From Dysidea avara (taxonomy: Eukaryota; Porifera; Demospongiae; Dictyoceratida; Dysideidae): DNA of 64,000 nucleotides. Of the stretch, positions 186 to 62,831 are shown one piece after another. Every line of letters begins with the position of its first letter. Within the stretch, counting starts at the first letter, position 1. Made by a program: the position numbers and the translations under genes. The stretch lies in NCBI RefSeq assembly GCF_963678975.1, contig NC_089276.1, positions 30,954,368 to 31,018,367 on the forward strand, in the 5' to 3' direction. Under the pieces are notes generated by a model, which saw only the letters and a program-made list of their open reading frames with translations, made no database searches and was not told where the DNA came from.

Positions 186-698
186 GAATGAAAAAGAAAA
201 GATTCAGCTACAAGGTGCAATACATGAGAAAGATCAACAGATAAAAAACTTTGAAGATCAAGTAAGAACACTAAACAGTGAAATAAGTAAAGTAAAAAGT
301 GAGAGAGAAAAGCTGCAAAGTGAATGTGAGAAGCTGCGAACCACCATTGGTGAAAGAGACGATACAATCCACAATCTGAATGAAACAACAGAACATTTCC
401 AAACTACTATTACCAAGCAAGTTGAAGAAATCAAAGAAATAAATGGTATAATGCGAGAAACTGAAGGCAAGATAAATAACACGATTCAAAAGAAAGATGA
501 ACTTGTAATAACCAAGAATAATGAAATTGATTCAATAAAAGAAGATGTTGACAGATTGACGAAGGATAAACAGAAATTTCAAGAAGAAATAAAGAAGAGA
601 GACGATGAATTGAAGAAATTGGAAAACTTGCGTAGTCAGTTAAATGACAAAGAAAAGCAAATCTCAAACCTGACAGTGTTGAAAGAGCAATTCAAAAG
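186..698 (+). CDS. Gene A exon: coiled-coil module
   Basis: This 513-nt exon is open throughout, with acceptor ...gtatag before it and donor gtaatt after it. It is bounded by phase-2 introns on both sides, so its length is a multiple of three. The product is a continuous charged helix of about 170 residues with hydrophobic a/d positions. The ATG at 172 lies upstream of the acceptor and is probably not used. Confidence 0.75.
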
Positions 699-60800: not shown

Positions 60801-62831
60801 AAGTCCTAATGTATCAGCATTTGTGAGAATAATAATCTCAAGGGACCTAACATCTGAATAAATTTTCAATCTTTAGAAAGTGCAATTTTTGTGTCGTGCG
60901 TATGGGGGATCCTCTATGTTGTAAAGTGGCCAATGTTACTTAAACATTATTGTTTTTTTTTGTACAGACTTGTTTATATAAATAACAGACCAACTTCTGG
61001 TGGTGGGACTCAATACCACTATGCATTATTAACATTATATAGGTAATTTCTTATTAAATACAAAATGGAATTCCTTATGAACCATGTAACCACAAACTAA
61101 AGCAAATGAAATCTTGAGTCAAATAAAACAGCCCACCTGTATAAGACGATTTGGCATTACTATGCAGTTGAAAGGGTTGTGAAGTCACTGGTGCAATAAT
61201 GCTTATTATTCTTAGTAATGACAAAATAGCATGGAACATTATTAATCTTTCACAAACGTAGCATTTATGCAATTTTTTTTGTTGTACTGTTTTACTATGT
61301 GATTACCGACAGAAAAGATCCTGATGAAATATTATTAGTGAAGGTTCAATTGCTGTGGGATATGCAAGAGCAACAAAAGCAGTTGAAAGATCAAGTTGCT
61401 GCTTTGAAAAGTGAAGTTAAAGAAAAAGACACACTATTGAAAGAGAAAGAACAAATCATACATGATAAAGAGAAGACTATTCAAAGATCTGAACGGTATA
61501 CACACACACACACACACACACACACACACACACACACACACACACACACACACACACACACACACACACACACACACACACACACACACGCACTACATCT
61601 TGCTGTGTCTAGTGCAGTGGTATACATCAGAATAATTTAGTTAAATGCTATTAGAGGTTTACAGCAATTAGCAAGATAACATGTTAGGTCTGCCACAAAT
61701 GTCAAGTTAGTATTTTTAAATATACGTATCTCAGCCAACAAATACCAAGTTACTTGTTAGCATTTAAAATTAAAAGAACTTTACAGTTTAGAATTCAGCT
61801 GAATTTTGCCACATGTAGTATACAGTGTTGCATGCAAATAAAAAACATCTCTCCACGTTATAAATGAACATCCATCCAAAATTTATTACCTATGAATATC
61901 AGTTACTTAACACATGATAATACATTTTTTCTCCACTTAATCACAAGGCAGTCAATTATGTTGATTTAATTGTTTTGTAGGTTAAGCAGCAAAGCTAATC
62001 TTCACTTAGAAACTGAACAAGGTCAAGTATCTGGACTGATAAGTCTTTTCCAAGATATTACAAGGGTAATTAAGAAATGTGTGCTAAAGTTGGTATAATG
62101 TAGTACGTCAATTTGTACAGAAACTGCCTGATTCAAATCAAGTTTTACAAATGTCTAACAATGGTCAGCAAATTAGAAATCACCCACCATATGTTGAGCC
62201 AGTTAGGAATCAACAACCAAATGGTGAAGCACGATTAGAGGCAACCAATAAAGAAAAGACTGCAAATAACCTTTCTGCAACTGTACAAAAGCATATTCAT
62301 GAAGCTAAAGTGTTTGAAACATCCACTAAAAAGTCCAACATATCTACTTCCAAATCAGCTAGCAGAGATCAAAATTCTGATTCTGATGAATCCGATATAT
62401 CAAAACGTCTTGATGCAAGTTCTGAAACAGACAAAGACAGAACTGATGGAGCTACTAATAGTGCAAATGATAGCTTGCTTGAAGGCGCTAAAGCTGATAG
62501 TACAAGAAAGCTTGAAACAAAACACAAAGAAAAGCTTGAGGCTCATCCAACAAAAAGAAAACAGGAAGAAAAGTTATGCAAGGCGCATGTTTCCAGCTCA
62601 AAGGTTGAACCCAAAACTAACAGTAAAACCAAAGTTATAGAGAGTGCCGAGACTGAACACAAGCCTACTACTAGTCCATCCAAGGGGACAGCTGAGTTAG
62701 CTAACAGTGAAGAACGAAATTCAAGTAGTGAAAATGGGTCTAAGGTACAAAAACTTAAAAATCACAAGCCTGATGGTAAACATTGCAGCAGTGAACATGA
62801 ATATGATGAAAAACTTGGAACACCTGTTTAA
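48356..62831 (+). CDS. Gene D: multi-exon protein with unrecognised N-terminal region, coiled coil and charged C-terminus
   Basis: Exons placed: 48356-48829, 50606-50821, 53752-53948, 54011-54089, 56731-56863, 57621-57652, 60968-61042, 61313-61495, 61981-62065 and 62121-62831. Junctions fit in phase except between 50821 and 53752 and between 57652 and 60968, where at least one small exon must be missing or an end is misplaced. The N-terminal and middle parts look globular (for example [49 protein letters not shown]). 61313-61495 is coiled coil. The last exon is a long Lys/Ser/Glu-rich, probably disordered region. I recognise no known domain. The C-terminal layout (phase-2 coiled-coil exon, phase-0 short exon, Lys-x-Pro last exon) equals genes A and B. 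Confidence 0.65.
49881..50533. mobile_element. Harbinger-like MITE carrying a CAG array
   Basis: Ends TACCGTGTAGCTAGTTATTT and the inverse of AAATAACCACCTATACGGTA give a 25-bp TIR with three mismatches. Both flanks are TTA (49878-49880, 50534-50536), the TWA duplication typical of PIF/Harbinger. 653 bp, no transposase. In gene D intron 1. Confidence 0.8.
50155..50265. repeat. (CAG)37 trinucleotide repeat
   Basis: 37 uninterrupted CAG units. The Gln, Ala and Cys homopolymer frames across it lack splice context and lie inside the MITE, so they are not treated as coding. Confidence 0.97.
50606..50821 (+). CDS. Gene D exon 2
   Basis: Acceptor gtcatag, donor gtacgt, phase 0 on both sides, 72 codons ([17 protein letters not shown] ... 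[10 protein letters not shown]). Mixed hydrophobic/polar, globular-looking; no family recognised. It starts about 70 bp after a Harbinger-like MITE. Confidence 0.72.
52162..52585. repeat. (TG)212 microsatellite, uninterrupted
   Basis: 424 bp of perfect TG as read, ending exactly where a SINE-like sequence begins (GCCTGGTAATC). It lies in a gene D intron. Confidence 0.97.
52586..52920 (+). mobile_element. tRNA-derived SINE, 5'-truncated
   Basis: It begins inside the tRNA-like head (GCCTGGTAATCAAAAAATTCC) and shares TTGTTTCCTTGAGCAAGAAA and GGCTTTGTTTTGCTT with the SINE at 52988-53440. Confidence 0.75.
52988..53440 (+). mobile_element. tRNA-derived SINE with A- and B-box-like promoter
   Basis: The head GAGGCAGCATAGCCATGTGG resembles a tRNA. 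A-box-like TAGCCATGTGG is at 52997-53007, an anticodon-arm-like CAGCCTGATAATCGAAAGG follows, and B-box-like GTTTCAATAC is at 53041-53050. The body contains GTTTCCTTGAGCAAGAA, GGTTACTAGTCCTGCCTCAG and TTCACACAACTGCC, and the 3' end is GGCTTTGCTTTGTGAG followed by TG-like sequence. It is directly preceded by a TG/TGTAG run. Confidence 0.82.
53476..53649. mobile_element. hAT MITE, AT-rich palindrome
   Basis: CAGGCTTGTTGTAATTA and TAATTACAACAAGCCTG are a 17-bp perfect TIR. Flanks ATGTACAG / GTGTACAG are an 8-bp duplication with one difference. The 174-bp interior is almost entirely TTAATTAC-type sequence. It ends about 100 bp before a gene D exon. Confidence 0.8.
53752..53948 (+). CDS. Gene D internal exon ([15 protein letters not shown])
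   Basis: Acceptor ttgtgttag (or the AG three bases on), donor gtaagt, ends phase 0 (...IPSGAS). It needs one upstream base, while the previous placed exon ends in phase 0, so an exon between them is missing. Confidence 0.65.
54011..54089 (+). CDS. Gene D internal exon ([17 protein letters not shown])
   Basis: Acceptor atgcttag, donor gtacgc; starts phase 0 and ends with one base of a Gly codon completed at 56731. Confidence 0.7.
54860..54912. repeat. Perfect 15-bp stem hairpin
   Basis: GCAGAGCAGAAGCAG (54860-54874) and CTGCTTCTGCTCTGC (54898-54912) flank a 23-base loop. It lies in a gene D intron; it could be a small inverted-repeat relic or a structured RNA. Confidence 0.7.
55760..55928 (+). 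mobile_element. SINE 3' fragment
   Basis: GGTTACTAGTCCTGCCCCAG, GCCTGAGTGGTGCACA, CAATAGCTGTGTTTCACA and GGCTTTACTTTGCTTTGTG match the 3' half of 52988-53440 and run straight into a TG array. Confidence 0.8.
55929..56128. repeat. (TG)n microsatellite with GAGCG interruptions
   Basis: Sandwiched between a SINE 3' end (left) and a SINE 5' head (right); TGTGAGCG variants in the middle. Confidence 0.96.
56134..56465 (+). mobile_element. tRNA-derived SINE, diverged copy
   Basis: The head GAGGCAGCGTAGCCAAGTAG, then CTAGAGCATCAGCCTGGTAA, matches 52988. TTGTTGTTTCC follows. The body is then unlike the other copies and ends in a CACACG/CACG array (about 56395-56465). Confidence 0.65.
56731..56863 (+). 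CDS. Gene D internal exon ([17 protein letters not shown])
   Basis: Acceptor tttcatag, donor gtatgt. It completes Gly, reads through a helical [19 protein letters not shown] segment, and ends two bases into a Thr codon. Confidence 0.68.
57621..57652 (+). CDS. Gene D short exon ([10 protein letters not shown])
   Basis: Acceptor ctttacag, donor gtaagt; 32 nt, starts in the phase left by 56863. Its 3' phase (one base) does not fit 60968, so another exon is missing or this one is misplaced. Confidence 0.45.
57758..57965. mobile_element. TA-flanked MITE (CC/CTATAGCCTAAA family)
   Basis: CCATATAGCCTAAACATTTT at the left and the inverse of AAATATTTAGGCTATACAG at the right, then TA on both sides. 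The interior includes runs like CCCCCCAAAACCGCGAAATC. Begins just after a gene D exon (57652). Confidence 0.72.
60968..61042 (+). CDS. Gene D internal exon ([17 protein letters not shown])
   Basis: Acceptor tttgtacag, donor gtaatt. The only open frame is phase 2 on both sides and joins exactly to 61313. Confidence 0.55.
61313..61495 (+). CDS. Gene D coiled-coil exon
   Basis: Acceptor taccgacag, donor gtatac, phase 2 on both sides. Product [20 protein letters not shown], then [19 protein letters not shown] and [13 protein letters not shown] 90-bp CA repeat begins four bases after the exon. Confidence 0.78.
61500..61589. repeat. (CA)45 microsatellite at a splice donor
   Basis: Pure CA from 61500 to 61589, four bases downstream of the exon/intron boundary at 61495/61496. 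Confidence 0.97.
61981..62065 (+). CDS. Gene D penultimate exon
   Basis: Acceptor tgttttgtag, donor gtaatt; starts with one base and ends phase 0 ([15 protein letters not shown] ... LFQDITR). Same phase pattern as 5195-5321 and 43223-43289. Confidence 0.75.
62121..62831 (+). CDS. Gene D terminal exon, Lys/Ser/Glu-rich
   Basis: Acceptor tttgtacag; begins [17 protein letters not shown] and ends [11 protein letters not shown]. 236 residues, low in hydrophobics, many Ser/Lys/Glu, probably disordered. The KLPD start parallels KVPN (gene A) and KIPD (gene B). Confidence 0.78.
   Translation, partial: KLPDSNQVLQMSNNGQQIRNHPPYVEPVRNQQPNGEARLEATNKEKTANNLSATVQKHIHEAKVFETSTKKSNISTSKSASRDQNSDSDESDISKRLDASSETDKDRTDGATNSANDSLLEGAKADSTRKLETKHKEKLEAHPTKRKQEEKLCKAHVSSSKVEPKTNSKTKVIESAETEHKPTTSPSKGTAELANSEERNSSSENGSKVQKLKNHKPDGKHCSSEHEYDEKLGTPV

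Follow-up and report, generated by a model that had tools for sequence, protein, structure and literature searches.

A tandem family of genes for coiled-coil proteins, with symmetric exons, in the sponge Dysidea avara

A 64,000-nucleotide stretch of the Dysidea avara genome (G000:C5:30954368-31018367, hereafter the window) holds part of a tandem family of genes for rod-shaped, coiled-coil proteins that is otherwise without a name, and one copy has lost or gained a rod exon with its protein unbroken. The genes discussed here are A, B, B's paralog B0 and D. Exon models were read from genomic sequence alone, and the family was found at one array only within the searched genome (550.8 Mb, 108 contigs). 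Literature searches found no description of this family, the genome comparison being confined to one genome. The original prediction named no known family with such a layout, and no Pfam match lay above the curated cut-off among the matches listed (for the coiled-coil exon of gene A, 25 of 89 were listed). The array of this so far uncharacterised gene family is a natural series for testing whether symmetric exons let coiled-coil proteins vary in length while frame and register are kept.

Symmetric rod exons and the B/B0 pair

Seven coiled-coil exons of A, B and D (513, 159, 93, 105, 126, 267 and 183 nt) had been proposed to be multiples of three with phase 2 at both ends. All of them are open in the phase-2 frame and have AG/GT borders. 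The nine exons of gene B join into 496 residues, with intron phases 0,2,2,2,2,2,2,0.

25322..25756, plus strand: exon 1, M ... SDNK, 145 aa, phase 0 at exit
27049..27101, plus strand: exon 2, phase 0 to 2
29581..29739, plus strand: coiled-coil exon 1 (cc1), phase 2-2, 159 nt, paralogous to a 138-nt exon of B0
30566..30658, plus strand: cc2, phase 2-2, 93 nt, paralogous to a 114-nt exon of B0
33653..33757, plus strand: cc3, phase 2-2, 105 nt
35229..35354, plus strand: cc4, phase 2-2, 126 nt, with the motif WMDVKIKEHE
42901..43167, plus strand: cc5, phase 2-2, 267 nt, paralogous to a 348-nt exon of B0
43223..43289, plus strand: short exon, phase 2 to 0
43347..43532, plus strand: last exon, KIPD ... 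DSSSSSE, stop

Seven exons were compared between B and B0; exon 1 and cc3 of B were excluded because their B0 counterparts were not found. Exon order and phases match in all seven, and the borders are kept too. Identical residues occupy 166 of 307 aligned positions, and codon differences at the first, second and third positions number 87, 66 and 123 of 307, the third changing most. The synonymous divergence (dS) is 0.92 and the nonsynonymous divergence (dN) 0.30, giving a dN/dS of 0.33 (bootstrap 0.21-0.47), of which the exact value is only approximate because dS is high. Judging from these codons, the best-preserved pair looks to be under purifying selection. The short exons of B and B0 are similar as well (score reached in 0 of 500 shuffles). 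Within the genome, cc4 of gene B has five matches at E<=10, four of them inside the array, and exon 1 matches nothing but itself at that threshold.

These comparisons bear on the concern that the exons were misread, being random open AG..GT stretches chosen for their coiled-coil look. Short exons of 53-160 nt may easily arise by chance within 64 kb, and the models come from genomic sequence; nevertheless, the borders and phases retained by B0 in 7/7 compared exons, together with the excess of third-position changes (123/307 against 87 and 66), make this reading very improbable.

Rod exons number three to five per gene (genes read from exon 2 on); a single exon has been lost or gained, and the remaining steps are heptad-sized. 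Exons of the cc3 and cc4 kinds have 35 or 42 codons in six of seven cases, that is, mostly whole heptads. A conceivable, if rather unlikely, reading is that the rod exons are doubly symmetric, in phase and, for these two kinds, mostly in heptads, so that both frame and coiled-coil register would survive exon loss, gain or skipping; the array would then be a molecular ruler family, tuning the length of the rod through the number of its exons and through heptad-sized indels. A doubtful alternative is that it is an ordinary decaying cluster of duplicates with no common present function, in which the run of phase-2 introns came from one ancestor and modularity is incidental.

Gene A and a decayed copy

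186..698, plus strand: coiled-coil exon of gene A, phase 2-2, 513 nt, 171 codons, open in the phase-2 frame, borders tatag / gtaatt
5195..5321, plus strand: short exon of gene A, phase 2 to 0, C-terminal end INKVMD
5381..5643, plus strand: last exon of gene A, KVPN ... DSTSSSE, with a TAG stop codon at 5642-5644
20040..22841, plus strand: decayed A-like copy, with remnants of the coiled-coil exon (20040-20202) and of the last exon (22645-22841)

The coiled-coil exon of gene A is the sole genome match to its own sequence at E<=0.001. A decayed relative of its last exon lies at 22.6-22.85 kb; the blastn E values of the coiled-coil and last exon remnants are 4e-20 and 4e-29 (z 12.8 and 38).

The position of gene D

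48356..48829, plus strand: exon 1, 158 aa, phase 0 at exit
50606-50825, 53755-53948, 54011-54089, 56731-56813, plus strand: exons 2-5, in D only, exon 2/3 junction uncertain
57621..57652, plus strand: short exon, phase 0 to 2
61313..61495, plus strand: coiled-coil exon, phase 2-2, 183 nt
61981..62065, plus strand: short exon, phase 2 to 0
62121..62831, plus strand: last exon, KLPD ... LGTPV, stop, 236 aa

The original prediction, which placed A, B and D in one array by a common 3' architecture, was borne out in part, as was its interpretation. The layout (2-2, 2-to-0, 0-to-stop) is present in the tails of all three genes, and the 3' phases of D are those of the family. The similarity expected among C-terminal exons was found between B and B0, whose last exons share 76% DNA identity, but clear similarity of any D exon to the family was not found in exon comparisons with A, B and B0. 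The D coiled-coil exon showed no sequence similarity to those of B and B0 and at best a weak one to that of A, and the short exon at 62 kb (61981..62065) showed no link to five other short exons. There is close to an even chance that D is an unrelated neighbour and that the agreement of its 3' phases with the array is a coincidence. Against this, D lies on the same strand, next in line after the array; its four 3' intron phases (0,2,2,0) are all as in the family; its last exon opens with KLPD; and the A-D coiled-coil score, its best similarity, was weak (reached by 9 of 400 shuffles). In addition, low-confidence AlphaFold2 (AF2) models of exon 1 place long helices at closely matching positions in D and B: 54-99 and 105-137 in D (confidence low before 50 and after 138; mean predicted local distance difference test score, pLDDT, 62.2), and 55-90 and 99-142 in B (low up to about residue 58; mean pLDDT 56.5).

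The middle exons of D are provisional because the open frame depends on the choice of donor and acceptor. Among the joins tried, the frame is complete with the weak donor 50825 and any of the acceptors 53752, 53755 and 53758, and is not open with donor 50821 and acceptor 53755. Exon 2 has no other genome match at E<=10. An array of 39 CAG repeats (50149-50265, 98% matches) lies within an intron of the gene as modelled.

Other features and the neighbourhood

A 94-nt tandem repeat occurs in five copies at 14113-14581 (98% matches). A sequence like ATATGTGACC(G/A)GGCCTGCGAAAATAGGGCATGTGGGCACA recurs in both orientations at about 26617-26660, 26850-26890 and 29270-29310, and is possibly a small mobile element.

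On the minus strand, 63307-64000 and its continuation to about 65186 (window coordinates) encode a protein kinase domain and then Kelch repeats (Pfam). The kinase loop reads HRN in place of HRD and the DFG position is DYL, so that the product may be a pseudokinase. Upstream of these frames, the minus strand also has coiled-coil stretches between 76.6 and 87.2 kb. Another locus (L031, ~G000:C11:12196681) has a frame with a kinase and a coiled coil and, after it, a Kelch-like frame, with an HCN kinase loop and DLG as read by eye; the genome may hold a family of kinase-coiled coil-Kelch genes. Some 48 kb beyond the right end of the window and about 50 kb past gene D, a minus-strand frame at 112373-112690 (window coordinates) matches the Death domain of Pfam with an E value of 1e-5.

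Comparison with known systems

Troponin T genes have symmetric exons. Troponin T (TNNT3) is a helical muscle protein whose exons are alternatively spliced, and the array resembles it in its run of small exons, its helical coiled-coil protein and exons that could serve as cassettes without frame loss. TNNT3 is described as a single-copy gene with alternative splicing, unlike the tandem family here, which is known from gene models. B exon 1, the middle of gene D and the Pfam scans yielded no link. The AIG/GIMAP GTPase families are reported to combine coiled coils and tandem arrays with gene expansion and loss (PMC7053062), and the likeness is in the expansion and loss of genes able to carry coiled-coil parts; a possible difference is that scans of proteins and exons from the array turned up no AIG1 GTPase domain. 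Synaptonemal complex proteins are reported to conserve coiled-coil features while their sequences have diverged (PMC8598163). The array likewise keeps its secondary-structure layout with little sequence conservation, a likeness of layout.
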